From: Orenia metallireducens
GTDB taxonomy: Bacteria; Bacillota; Halanaerobiia; Halobacteroidales; Halobacteroidaceae
Assembly (NCBI RefSeq): GCF_001693735.1
Contig: NZ_LWDV01000008.1
Span: 62,001 to 126,000, forward strand
Direction of reading: 5' to 3'
DNA: 64,000 nucleotides
How positions within the stretch are numbered: position 1 is the first letter of the stretch; the number at the start of each line of letters is the position of its first letter. Shown one piece after another: positions 29,089-61,095 of the stretch. The position numbers were made by a program, and so were the translations under genes. The notes below the pieces were generated by a model, which was given only the letters and a program-made list of their open reading frames with translations, ran no database searches and was not told the origin of the DNA.

Positions 29089-30706
29089 GAAGTAACCCAA
29101 TTTATTGGGTTACTTCAGGTTGTTGACAAAGTTATTGTCAACAGCCTTTTCTATTTATGGTATAATATAATTGACAATATATCTAAAAGGAGAAATAGAA
29201 TTATGTTTGTATCTCAAGAGAAAAAACAACAACAATATGAATTTGTAACAATAGAACAGTTAGTTCCAGAAGATCATCTTCTAAGACAAATAGATAGATA
29301 TATAGATTTTACTTTTATTACTGATATAACTAAAGACCTATACTGTCATGATAATGGAAGACCATGTATTGACCCTATTATTTTATTTAAAATGCTTTTT
29401 ATAGGTTATTTATATGGGATTCGTTCTGAAAGACAACTAGTAAAAGATATAAAAGTAAATATGGCTTATCGCTGGTTTTTAGGATATTCATTAACAGATG
29501 AAATACCACATCATTCTACTATAAGCCAAAATCGTATAAGAAAATATAGGGAAGCTAATATAGCAGAACAGATTTTTGATGAAATTGTTAGACAAGCTAT
29601 ATCCTATGGATTAGTTAGTGGAAAAGTGCTATATACAGATTCAACTCACATAAAAGCAAATGCTAATAAACAAAAATTAGAAGTACAAACATATTTAAAA
29701 GAACCTAAAGCTTATCTTGAAGAATTAGACGAAGCAGTTACTATAGAAAGAGAGAAACACAATAAGAAACCTTTAAAAAAAAAGAAGCATAAAGCTGAAC
29801 TTAAAGAAAGAAAAGTTAGTACAACTGATCCTGATAGTGGATACATGTTTCGAGATAGAAAACCCAAAGGTTTTTTCTATCTCGACCATAGGACTGTAGA
29901 CATAAAATATAATATTATAACAGATGTAACTGTAACTGCTGGCAATGTAAATGACGTTGACCCTTACTTAGATATATTAGATAAACAGATAGAAAAATTC
30001 AATTTTGATACTAAATATGTAGGGTTAGATGCTGGTTATTATACAAATTATATATGTAAAGAATTAGATGAAAGAAATATTCAGGGAGCAATCGCTTATA
30101 GACTAGGTCCACATGTAAAATATAAATATACTAAAAATAAATTTAATTATATTGCTGAAAAAGATATTTATACATGTCCCGCAGGACATGATTTAAACTA
30201 TAGAACTACAACTAGAGATGGCTATAATGAATATGTATGCTCTAAAGAAATCTGCCAAAATTGTTCTCATAAAGATAAGTGTTTATCAGAAAAAGTTACT
30301 TTCCGTACTATAAGGAGGCATGTTTGGGAACATTATAAAGAAGATGTTAAAGAATTCATGAGAACAGATAAAGGAAAAAGTATCTATAAAAAAAGAAAAG
30401 AAACTGTTGAGCGAAGTTTTGCAGATGGAAAAAATCTGCATGGACTTCGCTATTGTCGTATGCGTGGAAAGAAAAATGTTGAAGAACAATGTTTGTTAAC
30501 AGCATCAGTTCAAAACATGAAAAAGATCGCAAGCGTTCTTAAGCATAGAGAAAAGAACTCTATTCTTCTAAAATCAGATAATAATATTAAATTTTTATTA
30601 CTTTCTAAATCAATTTTAACTAAATTCAGCTATAGAAAAACCCCCACTAAAAAATTAGTGGGGGTTTTTCATCAATCTCAAGTAACCCAATTTATTGGGT
30701 TACTTT
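29089..30706 (+). mobile_element. IS1182-type insertion sequence
   Basis: The element is about 1.6 kb. The same 26-bp palindrome, with arms AAGTAACCCAA and TTGGGTTACTT around TTTA, occurs at 29090-29115 and 30680-30705 and bounds a transposase gene. A GTTGACAA/TTGTCAAC hairpin lies just inside the left end. Target duplication was not established. Confidence 0.8.
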
Positions 30707-30735
30707 TTTATAATCAAAAATTTTGTGTCTATTAA
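29203..30735 (+). CDS. IS1182-family transposase
   Basis: A 510-codon frame encoding a DDE transposase. The N-terminal domain (QLVPEDHLLRQIDRYIDF) is followed by YTDSTHIKAN (first Asp), GLDAGYYTNY (second Asp), a CPAGHDL zinc-binding segment with CSKEICQNCSHKDKC, and ETVERSFADGKNLHGLRYCRMRG (Glu). The frame has no stop inside the element. It reads through the internal terminator and the right-end palindrome into flanking DNA before stopping at 30735. The last 30 or so residues are therefore probably not native. Confidence 0.9.
   Translation: MFVSQEKKQQQYEFVTIEQLVPEDHLLRQIDRYIDFTFITDITKDLYCHDNGRPCIDPIILFKMLFIGYLYGIRSERQLVKDIKVNMAYRWFLGYSLTDEIPHHSTISQNRIRKYREANIAEQIFDEIVRQAISYGLVSGKVLYTDSTHIKANANKQKLEVQTYLKEPKAYLEELDEAVTIEREKHNKKPLKKKKHKAELKERKVSTTDPDSGYMFRDRKPKGFFYLDHRTVDIKYNIITDVTVTAGNVNDVDPYLDILDKQIEKFNFDTKYVGLDAGYYTNYICKELDERNIQGAIAYRLGPHVKYKYTKNKFNYIAEKDIYTCPAGHDLNYRTTTRDGYNEYVCSKEICQNCSHKDKCLSEKVTFRTIRRHVWEHYKEDVKEFMRTDKGKSIYKKRKETVERSFADGKNLHGLRYCRMRGKKNVEEQCLLTASVQNMKKIASVLKHREKNSILLKSDNNIKFLLLSKSILTKFSYRKTPTKKLVGVFHQSQVTQFIGLLFYNQKFCVY
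30636..30669 (+). terminator. Terminator near the right end of the insertion sequence
   Basis: AAAAACCCCCACTAA and TTAGTGGGGGTTTTT form a perfect 15-bp stem with an AAAA loop, lying inside the open transposase frame. Confidence 0.9.
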
Positions 30736-30891: not shown

Positions 30892-32481
30892 ATGAAACTA
30901 AGGATTAGAAATAAATTATTAATCAGTTTTGGGATAGTAATAGCTCTAATGGTTATAATGGGTTCTATTTATTTTTATTTATCTCAGGAAATAAGGGAGA
31001 TTACTAGTGAAAATGATAAATTAGCAGAAGGGCTTATATTTATTAAAGAGAAAGAAATTGATCATCTAGAATGGGTTGCTGATTTAAAGGATGTCTTTAT
31101 TTTTGGAAAGGAGTTTGAAGGTGAGTTAGATCATACTGAGTGTAGCTTTGGAAAATGGTATTATAGTCTTATTGAATCTGATGATTATCAAAAGCTTCCT
31201 CAAGAAATTAAAGAGGTATTAGCAAAGATAGAAGAGGATCATAGCAATCTACATCACTCAGCTTCAAAAATAAAAAATCAATATGATACCCTCTCTACTG
31301 TCACCTCTGATGTTAATAAAGTTGCAATAGATATTTATAAGAATGAGACTAGTAAATATCTAACTCAATTACAGGATTTGTTTAAAGAATATCAAGATTT
31401 CTTACATAAAGAAACCACTAAAAATATGATCTTAGTCCAACAGAAGAAGAAATCTATTGACCTAACAATAATGATTTTAATTATTTCAGCAATAGTTATT
31501 GCTACAGTTCTTGCCTTATTCACTAGTAAAAATATTACTGCTCCTTTGGCAAAGGCGGTAGAATTTGCAGATAAGATTGCCCATAATAATTTAAATCTAG
31601 AAGAGCTAGACATTGAATCTAAGGATGAATTGGGAGAATTGGCTAATTCTCTTAATAATATGTATAATAATTTAAAAGATATGATAAAAGAATTACTAGA
31701 GATAGTTAGTAGTCTATCATCTTATAGTGAGGAGTTACATGCTTTAGCAGAAGAAAGTGATGCTACTATAGAGTCTAATAATCAATTAATTGAAAGGATG
31801 TCGGCTAGTATTCAAGAGATAGCTGCTAACACTCAAGAGGTTACCAGCTTTGCAGAAAATTCTAGTATTAAAACTGAGCTTGGTAGCAAAGATATTGAAG
31901 AGACGATAAGTAGCTTACAGGAGATCAACCAAGAGGTCGAAGGGACTGTTAAGACAATTAGTGAATTAGATAATAATTCTAAAGAGATTGAACAAATAGT
32001 TGAATTGATTACTAATATAGCTAAACAGACCAATTTATTAGCTTTAAATGCTGCAATTGAAGCAGCCAGAGCAGGGGAAAATGGGCAGGGCTTTGCAGTG
32101 GTGGCAGATGAAATTAGAGAGTTAGCAGAAGAGACCTCACAGGCTACAGAGAACATAGCTGAATTGGTTAAGGAGACTCAGACTAAATCGACTGTTGGTT
32201 TAGAAGCTATTAAAAGGGTAGAGAGTAAGGTGGAAAAAGGAGAAGCTGTTGCTAAAAAAGCAGGAAAGGTATTTAAAGAGCTTCAAGAATCTAGTGAAGA
32301 GACTGTTGTTCATTTAGAACAGACAGCAGCATCTACACAAAGTTTGGCTGAAAACAGTGATGATATAATGAACGTTTCCCAAGAGATTAGAAATATGTCA
32401 GAAGAGGTTACAACATCATCACAAGATTTAGCACTTATGGCTCAAAAATTACAAAATTTAACAGAAAAATTTAGAGTATAA
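30892..32481 (+). CDS. Methyl-accepting chemotaxis protein with CZB-like sensor
   Basis: A 529-residue chemoreceptor. One helix near residues 9-30 and another near 188-210 bound an outer sensor domain. That domain carries a chemoreceptor zinc-binding (CZB) pattern: His58-x-x-Trp61, Cys84 in [12 protein letters not shown], and His117 with His121/122 in [13 protein letters not shown] segment follows, then the signalling hairpin [20 protein letters not shown]. It lies between two iron loci, so metal or redox sensing is plausible. ATG 30892 follows AAGGAG by eight bases. Confidence 0.9.
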
Positions 32482-32502
32482 ATTATTATCTTAAATTAGA
32501 GA

Positions 32503-32569
32503 ATATATCAATTCGTGATTGGCAAATAAATATCTAATATCCATAATATTGGAATTGATATATTTTTTT
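32503..32569 (+). terminator. Terminator after the chemoreceptor
   Basis: ATATATCAATTC pairs with GAATTGATATAT across a 37-base loop, followed by TTTTTTTA. Confidence 0.6.
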
Positions 32570-32577
32570 AATTTTAT

Positions 32578-32982
32578 TGATAATGATTTTTGATTTCAAC
32601 ACAAAATGTTATTAATGATAATTATTGACTTCTAGAATAGTATTTATTATAATATTATTAGTACAAATGAGAATGATTTTTATTCTGTTTTGTAATTGTA
32701 ATCATATAAATTCTTCTATAGCAAGAATATAATATAGTTAGTGAACTATAAGAGTCAAATTTTAATTAGAGTGAAGTTGAATAATAGTGGATAGGAAAAA
32801 TTGGTTTGGGTGTTTTTCCATCACGAAGAATTCAAAGAACTCGTAGGAAGAGTAATGAGTGATGAGTAACAAGTTAAAATCAAAAACATAAAAATACTAT
32901 AGATTTCACTTTAGCGTTGGATATCTATATAATTTAGATAGTGTTTTAGAAGTATTGTAATCTCACATGATAATGATTTTTA
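32578..32982 (+). promoter_or_regulatory. feo promoter region with four Fur-like boxes
   Basis: TTGACT (32625) and TATAAT (32648) are 17 bases apart. Fur-like sites TGATAATGATTTTTG (32578), TGATAATTATTGACT (32615, over the -35), TGAGAATGATTTTTA (32668) and TGATAATGATTTTTA (32968) match the 7-1-7 consensus with few differences. A decayed repeat fragment lies at 32820-32880. No gene is seen in the 551-base spacer. Confidence 0.8.
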
Positions 32983-33032
32983 TTTTAGTTATCAATATAA
33001 AAAAGTATTTAATTAAAAGGGGGATATAGAAA

Positions 33033-33245
33033 ATGACTTTAGCTGATGTTAAGCGTGGAGATAAGTTCCAAATTGATTTGATTCCTGATGAGATGATTAG
33101 AGCTCAAGCAATGAGGTTTGGAATTTCTGAAGGGTCTAATGTAATTTGTGCAGAGAAGATACCAGGAGGACCAGTAATCTTAAAGAGAAATTTACAAGAG
33201 ATTGCAATTGGAAGAAGGTTGGCACAAAAGATTAGAGTAAAGTAG
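33033..33245 (+). CDS. feoA: FeoA ferrous iron transport protein
   Basis: A 70-residue SH3-like FeoA: LADVKRGDKFQI, then RAQAMRFGISEGSNVIC and PGGPVILKRNLQEIAIGRRLA. It is a small cytoplasmic partner of FeoB. AAAAGGGGGATATAGAAA lies before the ATG. Its stop codon is the first part of the first unit of a tandem repeat that separates it from feoB. Confidence 0.93.
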   Translation: MTLADVKRGDKFQIDLIPDEMIRAQAMRFGISEGSNVICAEKIPGGPVILKRNLQEIAIGRRLAQKIRVK

Positions 33246-33643
33246 TAGGGAATAAAAATGACATTTATTTTGGTCATTTTTAGACCACGTAGGGTTCAAA
33301 GAACCCGAAGGGAATGTTTTAATTAAAGTTAAGCAATAATCATAAAAACAAACGAAAAGTAATAGAAGGAAGAGATATAATAGATTATTGTAGGGAATAA
33401 AAATGACATTTATTTTGGTCATTTTTAGACCACGTAGGGTTCAAAGAACCCGAAGGGAATCTTTTAATTAAAAGTTAAGCAATAATCATAAAAATAAACG
33501 AAAAGTAATAGAAGGAAGAGATATAATAGATTATTGTAAGGAATAAAAATGACATTTACTTTGGTCATTTTTGGACCACGGAAGGTTCGAAGAACCCGAA
33601 GGGAATCTTTTAATTAAAAGTTAAGCAATAATCACAAAAATAA
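33245..33643. repeat. Triplicated ~146-bp repeat between feoA and feoB
   Basis: Units begin at 33245, 33390 and 33536; the third is incomplete. Each has an AAAATGAC/GTCATTTT hairpin ending in TTTTT, a GGGTTC-AAA-GAACCC hairpin in the first two units (imperfect in the third), and a shared tail GTTAAGCAATAATCA. The first two also carry GAAGGAAGAGATATAATAGATTATTGTA, which resembles the feoB ribosome site and start. Units are nearly identical apart from a few substitutions. Confidence 0.92.
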
Positions 33644-33659
33644 CGGGAGGAAATTAATA

Positions 33660-35510
33660 ATGGATTGTTGTAATATAAGTCACCAGATTGATATACCAGA
33701 AGGTGCAAAAAAGATTGTATTAGCAGGGAATCCAAATGTAGGAAAGTCTATATTCTTTAATTCTTTTACAGGAATTTATGTGGATGTATCTAATTATCCA
33801 GGCACAACTTTGGATATTAGTTCTGGAAAGTATAAAGATGATGTAGTTATTGATACCCCAGGTGTTTATGGAGTATCTTCCTTTAATGATGAAGAGATTG
33901 TGGCTAGAGATGGGATTGCTTCGGCTGACATAGTAGTAAATATCGTTGATGCAGTCCATTTAGAACGGGATTTATTCTTGACCCAACAGGTTATCGATAT
34001 GGGAATCCCAGTATTGGTAGCCTTGAATATGATGGATGAGGCTCAAAAGAGTGGATTAGAGATAGATATCGATACTCTAAGTGAAGAGTTAGGAGTGCCA
34101 GTAATCCCAACAACAGCAATTAAAGGTGAGGGACTAGCTGAAATAAAAGAAGCTGTCTGGGATGCTAAGGTTGGAAATAGTAGCTTAAAGTTAGAAGCAG
34201 AGTTAGAAGATGTGAAATTTAAGGGAGCTAGTCGTGCAGAAGCTCTATTGATATTAGAAGGAGACCCTCATGTAGCTAAGAAGTATAGTACTGAGCCTTT
34301 AGATTATAGAGAGACTATCTATAGAGGTCGTCGTGAGCGAGTAAATGAGATTGTTGATAAGGTAGTTACTGAAACCAATGAAGGAACAAGCTTTAGAACA
34401 ACACTAGGAAGACTGATGCTAAGACCTTTAACAGGAATACCTATGCTATTATTGGCTTTATATGGCTTATATGAGTTTGTAGGAGTATTTATTGCTCAAA
34501 CAGTGGTAGGAATTACAGAGGAGACTATCTTTATTGAGACCTATGAGCCCTTTATTAGAGGTATTATTCATAACATAGTTGAACCTAGTTCATTGATTAG
34601 TCAGTTATTGGTAGGAGAGTTTGGATTATTGACGATGGCTATTACTTATACTTTTGGGTTATTACTCCCTTTAGTTGTTGGTTTCTACTTATTTTTGGCT
34701 ATCTTAGAGGATTCAGGATACTTACCAAGAATTGCAGCCTTAGTTGATAGAATGTTGACATCCTTAGGATTGAATGGTAGAGCTGTAATTCCGATGTTAT
34801 TAGGCTTTGGTTGTGTAACTATGGCTACCATTACAACTAGATTATTAGGTTCTAAACGTGAACGGATTATTGCAGTATTCTTATTAGGATTAGCAATTCC
34901 TTGTTCTGCTCAGCTAGGGGTTATTGCAGGGTTGATTGCTCCATTGGGTGCTAAGTTCTTTATGGTATATGTTGCAGCTATCTTTGCAGTTTATGTTCTA
35001 GCAGGAACCTTCCTAAATAAGATATTACCTGGTGAATCTACAGATTTATTAATCGATTTACCACCACTTCGTTTGCCAAGGTTGAGCAATGTTATGCAGA
35101 AGACCTTTATTAAGTCTAAATCTTTCATTAAAGAGGCAGGACCTATCTTTGCAGTTGGTGCAGTGGCAATTACTTTAATGCAAGAGTTTGGACTTTTAGA
35201 AGCTATTCAAAATGCAGTGGCACCAATAACTGTAGGATGGTTAGAGCTACCTAAAGAGGCAGCTACAGCATTTATTATGGGAATCGTTCGTCGTGACTTT
35301 GGTGCAGCAGGTTTAACTGATTTGGCTATGACACCAGCACAGACTACAGTAGCTTTAATTACAATTACATTATTTGTACCTTGTATTGCAGCAATGTTAA
35401 TCATGATTAAAGAGAGAAGCTGGAAAGAGAGTATTTATATCTGGTTTGGAAGCTGGATTACAGCCTTTGTGACAGGTGGTATTGTAGCTAAATTATTGGC
35501 ATTATTTTAA
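33660..35510 (+). CDS. feoB: FeoB ferrous iron transporter
   Basis: A 616-residue Fe(II) transporter. The N-terminal G domain has GNPNVGKS (residues 23-30), YPGTTLD, DTPGVYG and NMMDEA. A short spacer region follows, then the membrane domain with two Gate regions: LGFGCVTMATITTR with a conserved Cys, and FVPCIAAMLIMIKE near the end. It is shorter than E. coli FeoB (773) and has no FeoC fusion. GGGAGGAAATTAATA precedes the ATG. Confidence 0.95.
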   Translation: MDCCNISHQIDIPEGAKKIVLAGNPNVGKSIFFNSFTGIYVDVSNYPGTTLDISSGKYKDDVVIDTPGVYGVSSFNDEEIVARDGIASADIVVNIVDAVHLERDLFLTQQVIDMGIPVLVALNMMDEAQKSGLEIDIDTLSEELGVPVIPTTAIKGEGLAEIKEAVWDAKVGNSSLKLEAELEDVKFKGASRAEALLILEGDPHVAKKYSTEPLDYRETIYRGRRERVNEIVDKVVTETNEGTSFRTTLGRLMLRPLTGIPMLLLALYGLYEFVGVFIAQTVVGITEETIFIETYEPFIRGIIHNIVEPSSLISQLLVGEFGLLTMAITYTFGLLLPLVVGFYLFLAILEDSGYLPRIAALVDRMLTSLGLNGRAVIPMLLGFGCVTMATITTRLLGSKRERIIAVFLLGLAIPCSAQLGVIAGLIAPLGAKFFMVYVAAIFAVYVLAGTFLNKILPGESTDLLIDLPPLRLPRLSNVMQKTFIKSKSFIKEAGPIFAVGAVAITLMQEFGLLEAIQNAVAPITVGWLELPKEAATAFIMGIVRRDFGAAGLTDLAMTPAQTTVALITITLFVPCIAAMLIMIKERSWKESIYIWFGSWITAFVTGGIVAKLLALF

Positions 35511-35524
35511 TATCAGTTAAGTGA

Positions 35525-35582
35525 AGGTGTGGGTATGAGTGGACTACTTAGAGTTTAGCTCAGTGCTCACACTTTTTCTTAT
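35525..35582 (+). terminator. feoB terminator
   Basis: GTGTGGGTATGAG pairs imperfectly with CTCAGTGCTCACAC, followed by TTTTTCTT. Confidence 0.7.
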
Positions 35583-35602
35583 TAATGCGGGTTTTATGGG
35601 TA

Positions 35603-35817
35603 TATTGCGACACTTTTCACACCTCATCCCCAACCCTTCTCCTACTCTTAAGAGAAGGGAGAAAAGTAAAAGAGAAAGAGTTTCCCCTCTCATTAGTTAA
35701 GGAGAGACTGGTTGTGTACGAAGAGTAATTGAACTGTATTACTCGTAGGGGGATTAAGGGGTGAGGTTTGAGGTTTTGAACTTAATTTTTAACTATAAAA
35801 GTGTCGCAATATCTATA
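35603..35817. repeat. MITE-like element with TTGCGACACTTTT ends
   Basis: TATATTGCGACACTTTT on the left and AAAAGTGTCGCAATAT on the right bound about 215 non-coding bases, including an ACGAAGAGTAAT/ATTACTCGT hairpin. The right terminus is shared with the repeats at 44.5, 51.2 and 61.07 kb. Confidence 0.8.
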
Positions 35818-35872
35818 TATAACGACATATTAAAATCAAATTTTAAATTAATATAAAGAGGAGGTTGAAAAT

Positions 35873-36013
35873 ATGAATTGCAATACCCATAAAAAGATAA
35901 GAGTCTGCTCAGAATGTGGATATGAGGTCAAAGATCAATCGGCAATTAGGTGCCCTCGTTGTTTTAAGATATTACTTAAAAAGTGTTCAGAGTGTGATGG
36001 ATGTGGATTATAA
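35873..36013 (+). CDS. Zinc-ribbon miniprotein
   Basis: A 46-residue protein with CSECG, CPRC and CSECDGCG, eight closely spaced cysteines fit for one or two zinc ribbons. AGAGGAGGTTGAAAAT before the ATG and a terminator directly after the stop mark it as a real monocistronic gene. The function is unknown; similar miniproteins bind zinc or nucleic acid. It lies after the feo locus and before the pxp genes but shares no transcript signal with either. Confidence 0.75.
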   Translation: MNCNTHKKIRVCSECGYEVKDQSAIRCPRCFKILLKKCSECDGCGL

Positions 36014-36047
36014 AGGGTCTTAAGCCTAAGCTTGAGACTCTTTTTTT
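36013..36047 (+). terminator. Terminator of the zinc-ribbon gene
   Basis: AGGGTCTTAAGC pairs with GCTTGAGACTCT (G-T pairs), followed by a run of seven T. Confidence 0.85.
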
Positions 36048-36134
36048 ACTAATACCTTGGTTAATATAGAAATTGAAATCTTTAACCTGTAAAGGTATAA
36101 TAGCAGTTAATAGAGTTTAAAAAGGAGAGGTAAT

Positions 36135-60699: not shown

Positions 60700-61095
60700 A
60701 TGATAGAAACTGTGTCAATGTAAAATTGACAATTAAAAGAAATTAAAGTTTTTTAAGGAGAAGAAAATTATTGTTTAAACGAAGCAAATATTCTAAAAAA
60801 TAATAGATTTAAGATAATCTTTGAATTAGGAATCTTAAATTTCTTAATCTCAATGTATATTGATTGCGCAGTGAGTGGGCTCTGCCACGAAGGGTTTGCT
60901 CTTTAAACCCGTAGATATATTTTCTTCTTGATTGGACTTGCTTTGCACGAAAGGGAATTACACTATATTCTCTGTAGGATCACGAAGGGTTCCCTACAGG
61001 CTTTTAGTAAAAAAACTTCCGTAATAAACTTAAGAATGAACCCGTAGTTTTACTTACTTTTTTAAAAGTAAAATTGTCGCAACCTCCCTAAAAAA
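60700..61095. repeat. Long non-coding repeat, family B, second copy
   Basis: Contains TGTTTAAACGAAGCAAA, GATTGCGCAGTGAGTGGGC, TCTGCCACGAAGGGTTTG and a right end AAGTAAAATTGTCGCAACC, in the same order as at 44.16-44.50 kb. Additional ACGAAGGGTTCC hairpins lie at 60980-61010. No gene is seen in the 707-base spacer. Confidence 0.7.

Follow-up and report, generated by a model that had tools for sequence, protein, structure and literature searches.

The spacer between the iron-uptake genes feoA and feoB in the window, by which we mean the whole stretch of 64,000 nucleotides that was analysed from a salt-loving bacterium of the Orenia type, is a tandem array built on a dispersed two-hairpin element, and its units carry along copies of the feoB start, decayed in this genome and intact in a sister species of Orenia. 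The most probable history, to which we give a likelihood of roughly 70%, is that a REP-like element inserted behind feoA and that a tandem duplication then took in the feoB start, the hairpins presumably protecting the 3' part of the feoA message and the enlarged spacer uncoupling feoB. Read in this way, the array is a legible case of REP-like repeats reshaping an operon: an element settles at a stop codon, tandem growth captures the start of the next gene, and the copies decay. Extant species show the spacer at stages of one, three and four elements. The array also draws attention to a Halobacteroidaceae repeat family for which the listings and abstract openings searched hold no description.

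Structure of the feoA-feoB spacer

The array is enclosed by feoA (33033-33245, plus strand; 70 amino acids; Pfam PF04023 FeoA at 46.3 bits, where the cut-off is 23), the TAG stop codon of which occupies 33243-33245, and by feoB (33660-35510, plus strand; 616 amino acids; N-terminus MDCCNISHQ), recognised by the Pfam domains FeoB_N (PF02421, E 8.4e-52), Gate and FeoB_C and encoding a protein 94% identical to FeoB of O. metallireducens MSL40. The coordinates leave a spacer of 414 nt, and Tandem Repeats Finder reports there an array at 33245-33643 (period 146 bp, 2.7 copies, 96% matches, score 728), which bears out the earlier sequence-only reading of a triplicated spacer with units of about 146 bp. 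Among the four tandem-repeat rows returned for the 64-kb window it is the sole one with a unit of at least 40 bp. Unit 1 (33245-33390, plus strand) and unit 2 (33390-33536, plus strand) are identical at 144 of 146 aligned bases, and thus differ at two, while the partial unit 3 (33536-33643, plus strand), which enters the real ribosome site and start of feoB, is more distant (120/132 against unit 1, 123/133 against unit 2). Every unit contains a pair of hairpins; the folding of unit 1 has a z of -2.87, with 1 of 200 shuffles equally stable, and that of the entire spacer a z of -4.80, with none of 100 shuffles as stable.

Upstream of feoA, within 32560-33000, lie several GATAATGATT-like stretches, which we take to resemble Fur boxes. 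A stretch of about 200 bp between them, present in the window genome (G000) and absent from G007 (O. metallireducens), holds a further copy of the element (32785-32849, plus strand). A transposase gene (Pfam DDE_Tnp_1_6 / DUF772) is found at 29203-30735, three genes upstream of feoB.

Copied feoB starts

At the end of both unit 1 and unit 2 stands a degraded copy of the feoB start with its ribosome site, in which ATA replaces ATG and a short in-frame run continues to a TAA. Fossil start 1 (33365-33400, plus strand), recognised from sequence, alignment and its intact counterpart in G006, reads GAAGGAAG...ATA GAT TAT TGT AGG GAA TAA, and fossil start 2 (33511-33546, plus strand), recognised from sequence and alignment, reads GAAGGAAG...ATA GAT TAT TGT AAG GAA TAA. 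That two unit ends resemble the ribosome site and ATG of feoB had been noticed before, and the alignment agrees at 21 of 25 bases with one 2-base gap (one base further in unit 2). By score alone this likeness is suggestive only, for in a control of 12,736 overlapping 50-base stretches of the window, taken from both strands, the score of unit 1 is reached by 16 and that of unit 2 by 3.

The origin of these ends is settled by the second Orenia species (G006), the feoA-feoB spacer of which comprises four units in 598 nt. All four carry AGGAGGAAGAAATGTA ATG GAC TGT TGT AGG GAA TAA, that is, MDCCRE followed by a stop, where FeoB itself begins MDCC, and in all four the ATG is preceded by AGGAGG, an intact ribosome site; a chance resemblance to feoB is excluded by these copies, not by the score. 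The units are nearly identical, with units 1 and 3 identical, and the hairpins are missing from that part of the spacer which precedes the first copied start.

It could be argued that the MDCCRE frames are themselves functional, serving as leader or decoy frames which load ribosomes upstream of feoB and so regulate it. Their integrity in 4/4 units of G006, with AGGAGG ahead of the ATG, would accord with such a role, but both copies in G000 have lost the ATG and the ribosome site, there are none in G007 and, since units 1 and 3 of G006 are identical, no footprint of selection is readable in them; we consider this role very improbable.

The feo spacer in related genomes

The copies of the element in the feo spacer number 3 in G000, 4 in G006 and 1 in G007. 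The sequence-only reading had suggested that copy number may differ among strains; the variation observed is one between species. In G007, the feo region of which is identical to the O. metallireducens MSL40 record, a spacer of 198 nt contains a single composite element with an inverted half and no copied start. Because one and four repeats occur in two related species, the spacer appears both to grow and to shrink over evolution. The junction TTGTAGGGAATAA is common to G000 and G006, and the duplication is therefore probably older than their split. Yet at four other sites the flanking sequences make G000 and G007 the closer pair (87-91% identical, against 67-82% for either with G006), and the presence of the junction in G006 and its absence from G007 therefore imply either that G007 contracted its array or that the junction arose twice. 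The G007 composite with its inverted half is a point which a simple account of insertion and duplication leaves unexplained.

Three feoA-feoB pairs (L066, L071 and L067), which represent two further genera of the family, have spacers measuring 16, 17 and 19 nt by eye. The element model has no match in eight feo loci, namely these three and five feoB loci from more remote relatives.

A dispersed, family-restricted element

What the sequence-only reading missed is that the hairpins belong to a dispersed repeat which is restricted to the family and often stands in tandem at gene ends. A pattern search of the window's own genome, allowing up to 3 mismatches, found 11 places against none for the reversed pattern. 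The covariance model R1 is based on an alignment (A1) of 25 rows, including three of the four window copies: copy 1 of the array (33249-33313, 64.8 bits), copy 3 (33540-33604, 55.4 bits) and the copy upstream of feoA (73.7 bits); copy 2 (33394-33458) scores 64.8 bits, and all are on the plus strand. Two helices are supported in this alignment, in that 85.9% of cells are paired, 8 pairs are changed on both sides and the covariation score is 0.192, values which none of 500 shuffles reached; further pair types, one of five measures, are not unusual (60/500 shuffles). Helix 1 is paired in 78% of cells and helix 2 in 97%, hairpin 1 being variable in sequence.

At E <= 0.01, and among at most 150 scored candidates per genome, the model yields 212 matches in eight genomes of the family. 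The three Orenia genomes account for 27, 20 and 38 of these; two species from a second genus have 64 and 57, and the three remaining family members 1, 3 and 2. No match was obtained at E <= 0.001 in five genomes of the order's other family, nor at E <= 0.0001 with stricter filters in the 148 other genomes of a 149-genome sample of the phylum, two genomes being common to both sets. Among the genomes searched the element is restricted to the Halobacteroidaceae, with many copies in five. Rfam offers no counterpart in the regions compared: for window 32400-34400 the best overlap is gltS with 22.3 bits against a gathering score of 47.5, and in 20 loci with the element the only families matched are RNase P, T-box and TPP, with no overlap between them and the element. 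Elsewhere in the window, at 60951-61050, there is a weak match to the model (22.1 bits, E 0.0094), where the relaxed hairpin pattern matches too.

A composite form, in which hairpin 1 is followed by an inverted core, a third hairpin and the core, occurs at L226 2080-2176, L065 1400-1540 and L151 1470-1568 (also L029), and the simple element may derive from it through loss of the middle. Some copies in G007 and G000 are apparently, by eye, inside longer repeats with similar ends, which recalls MITEs; the array copies at gene ends differ in being without those repeat ends. By eye, the G007 copies near position 1500 of L159-L164 are apparently inside repeats of about 165 bp with ATATTRMGACAGT-like similar ends, and those in L162, L145 and at window 32785 inside repeats with TCCAA-type ends.

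Placement at gene ends and tandem growth

Placement was tabulated for 84 places, which represent 119 of 126 model matches (the 7 under 35 bits were dropped) in 83 sources, that is, the window and 82 loci. As these loci were picked from the 212 matches, those listed, with arrays first, the proportion of arrays (21/84 places) overstates their share. At 52 of the 84 an ORF of 80 or more codons is in reach upstream, and its stop falls between -7 and +20 of the model start in 31 of the 52, a raw count the codon limit of which lies above feoA with its 70 amino acids. For strand and overlap the gene calls are longest-ORF picks, among which feoA is displaced by an overlapping ORF, and the upstream distance of the window array is therefore wrong there while its strand is right. 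On these calls the upstream gene lies on the element's strand at all 21 places with at least two copies and at 35 of the 62 single-copy places with a called upstream ORF, and the element overlaps an ORF of at least 60 codons at 11/84 places.

The 21 arrays, when their sequences are compared, all run head-to-tail. Tandem Repeats Finder detects arrays of period at least 40 in 15 of the 82 loci, 14 of the 15 at the element, which is therefore the main seat of tandem repeats in the loci and the window. At L156 1499-1793 (G006:C7:450498-450792), directly behind a stop codon, four head-to-tail copies with a 77-bp period are 99% alike; this array is a recent expansion.

Copy number differs at 5/5 sites across the three Orenia species, the feo spacer among them, the sites having been picked for an array in some species. 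Behind the ribonucleotide reductase gene there are 2, 0 and 4 copies in G000, G006 and G007, respectively; behind hisIE 2 plus a composite, 0 and 1 composite; at the L146 site 2, 0 and 0; and upstream of the RNase P RNA 1, 0 and 3. Two of these sites allow filled and empty alleles to be compared by eye. At L146 the TAG stop preceding the G000 element is already present in the empty G006 allele; at hisIE the empty allele stops with TAA and the filled alleles with a TAG whose last letter is the element's first base.

Transcribed 3' element or terminator

The sequence-only reading had also assigned a terminator-like hairpin to each unit; a hairpin pair is indeed present in each, but the terminator part was not supported. 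In hairpin 1 of the feo units, which has a 10-base loop, the T run is paired within its own stem and is then followed by AGACC, and the combination of a G+C-rich stem with an unpaired T run is not found in the array by a scan limited to loops of 8 bases. That scan, over 32450-36100, returned three terminator-like sites, none in the array, and its limit excludes the 10-base loop of hairpin 1. One might nevertheless regard the units as a series of terminators or attenuators which tune feoB down after feoA, given the A-tract/T-tract hairpin in the sense strand of each unit and the position of arrays behind genes on their own strand in 21/21 cases. Against such a series stand, besides the empty scan and the T run buried in the stem, the L156 and L179 copies, in which no T run follows hairpin 1, and two other sites at which a separate terminator-like hairpin follows the elements. 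These are the reductase and hisIE sites of G000, where that hairpin lies downstream on the same strand, and the element there is therefore probably a transcribed 3' untranslated part. Placement at the stop codon and the position between stop and terminator thus favour a transcribed 3' element over a terminator, and we hold the terminator series to be unlikely. In the hisIE array, one copy of hairpin 2 or 1 has a terminator-like score when the minus strand is read. Promoter-like sites amount to 19, against 16.6 expected in shuffles, no noteworthy excess.

Comparison with REP and BIME sequences

In the extracts of PMC3733652 consulted, REP and BIME sequences are short palindromes with many copies, mostly behind genes; an ORF next to a GTAG REP often takes its TAG stop from the end of that REP, large clusters are for the most part made up of units reiterated in tandem together with the DNA beside them, and ORFs contain some of the REPs. 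The same traits, palindromes, position at gene ends, supply of TAG, tandem reiteration with flanks and copies in ORFs, are found here, the covarying short palindrome having 20-64 matches in each of five genomes and lying mostly outside genes near their 3' ends. No dedicated RAYT was found beside the element in the 19 Y1 loci examined. The element is unlike a REP in consisting of two adjacent hairpins, the first variable, and in lacking the GTAG/CGTC tag in the 25 aligned copies: GAAG precedes hairpin 2 in 21/25 and GTAG in 1/25, hairpin 2 is followed by GAAG in 17, GTAG in 4 and GGAG in 3, hairpin 1 is preceded by ATAG in 15 and by GTAG in none, and CGTC is absent before hairpin 1 and on either side of hairpin 2. 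We therefore call the element REP-like and not a member of the REPs. As to the alternating orientation of BIMEs, the composites (L065, L226 and L029/L151) contain an inverted half and the 21 arrays keep one orientation. A word search of the main text of PMC3733652 yielded no description of the element; the main text of the RepRanger paper (PMC12306157) contains neither Orenia nor words beginning with Halan; and listings and abstract openings on Orenia repeats, Halanaerobiales REPs, feoA-feoB spacers and REPs at stop codons describe no such element.

Proposed history and function

On the preferred reading, a REP-like two-hairpin repeat of the Halobacteroidaceae would have settled immediately after the stop codon of feoA, and a tandem duplication would then have copied the element together with its tail, the feoB ribosome site and the first feoB codons. 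The junction may have formed on a shared GTA, found in feoB (...TGT TGT AAT) and behind feoA (AAAGTAGTAGGG), a three-base microhomology that is weak evidence for the mechanism. The extra feoB starts would have been intact at first, as they still are in G006 with a hexapeptide frame MDCCRE each, and units 1 and 2 of G000 would subsequently have lost the ATG and the ribosome site. A later second duplication within the G000 array is proposed to account for the near-identity of these two units and the lost ATG which they share.

In E. coli the REP in the malE-malF intercistronic region forms hairpins between two genes of one operon and stabilises the upstream message. The feo array likewise places hairpins between operon genes, differing in that it has three units in tandem, which include copies of the start of the gene downstream, and in being known from sequence. 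Hairpins in the mRNA may then act as intercistronic REPs do, giving 3' protection to the feoA part, and growth of the spacer to 414 nt would be expected to end the translational coupling of feoB to feoA and to lower the ratio of FeoB to FeoA.

For this functional half a serious rival is that the array is neutral debris. The element and its expansion in tandem would then be selfish, and the feo spacer merely tolerated without regulatory effect. The decay of the fossil starts in G000 and the variation in copy number at 5/5 sites in three species speak for it, but feoA and feoB are still adjacent across spacers that have lengthened to 414 and 598 nt, and G006 keeps the ATG and ribosome site in 4/4 units, which, being nearly identical, may simply be young. 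We rate neutrality as a real prospect at somewhat below even odds. Beyond the preferred reading, the element could be an unnamed mobile hairpin specific to the family, which settles at stop codons and sometimes in genes, grows head-to-tail in 3' untranslated parts, acts as a copy-number dial for operons and multiplied the feoB start into decoy frames; this broader proposition seems to us doubtful.

Mobility and Y1 transposases

Matches to Y1 transposases occur in 7/8 genomes of the family, the copy in the window's own genome having internal stops. A first look for the pattern over the Y1 loci found nothing, and at E <= 0.1 the element model gave three weak matches in 19 Y1 loci (L097, 28.8 and 21.3 bits; L103, 18.7 bits), those in L097 lying in and beside a two-gene transposon of the IS200/IS605 type and not around a RAYT. 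Over the 19 Y1 loci no dedicated RAYT was found beside the element. Within 59,782 bases of the Y1 loci the relaxed hairpin pattern matches 7 times, with L104 and L110 representing a single place counted twice, and within flanks totalling 160,000 bases it matches 4 times, an excess that is suggestive. The hits considered more closely were those of L097, L103 and L104; L104 aligned too poorly with its best relative for an insertion to be placed. Core-like hairpins in or beside genes of IS200/IS605-type transposons are located at L097 506-558 and 1433-1498, L103 2703-2804, L096 2373-2405 and L104 1794-1826.

The 28.8-bit match, in G006, is inside a TnpB-type gene (Pfam Cas12f1-like_TNB, OrfB_IS605) which adjoins a Y1 transposase gene. 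Relative to the matching transposon of G003, from another genus, this TnpB gene has 36 extra in-frame bases, made up of the core hairpin and flanks. No target-site duplication is evident by eye at the G006 insert. The G003 copy is without the 36 bases and has 42 extra bases of its own, with a core-like hairpin in opposite orientation, 21 bases upstream of the G006 insertion place and with only a 13.0-bit match to the model. The 36-base insert, as a pair of filled and empty sites, therefore supports mobility of the core by itself. In both transposon copies, that of G006 and that of G003, a core-like hairpin also stands just behind the stop codon of the Y1 gene.
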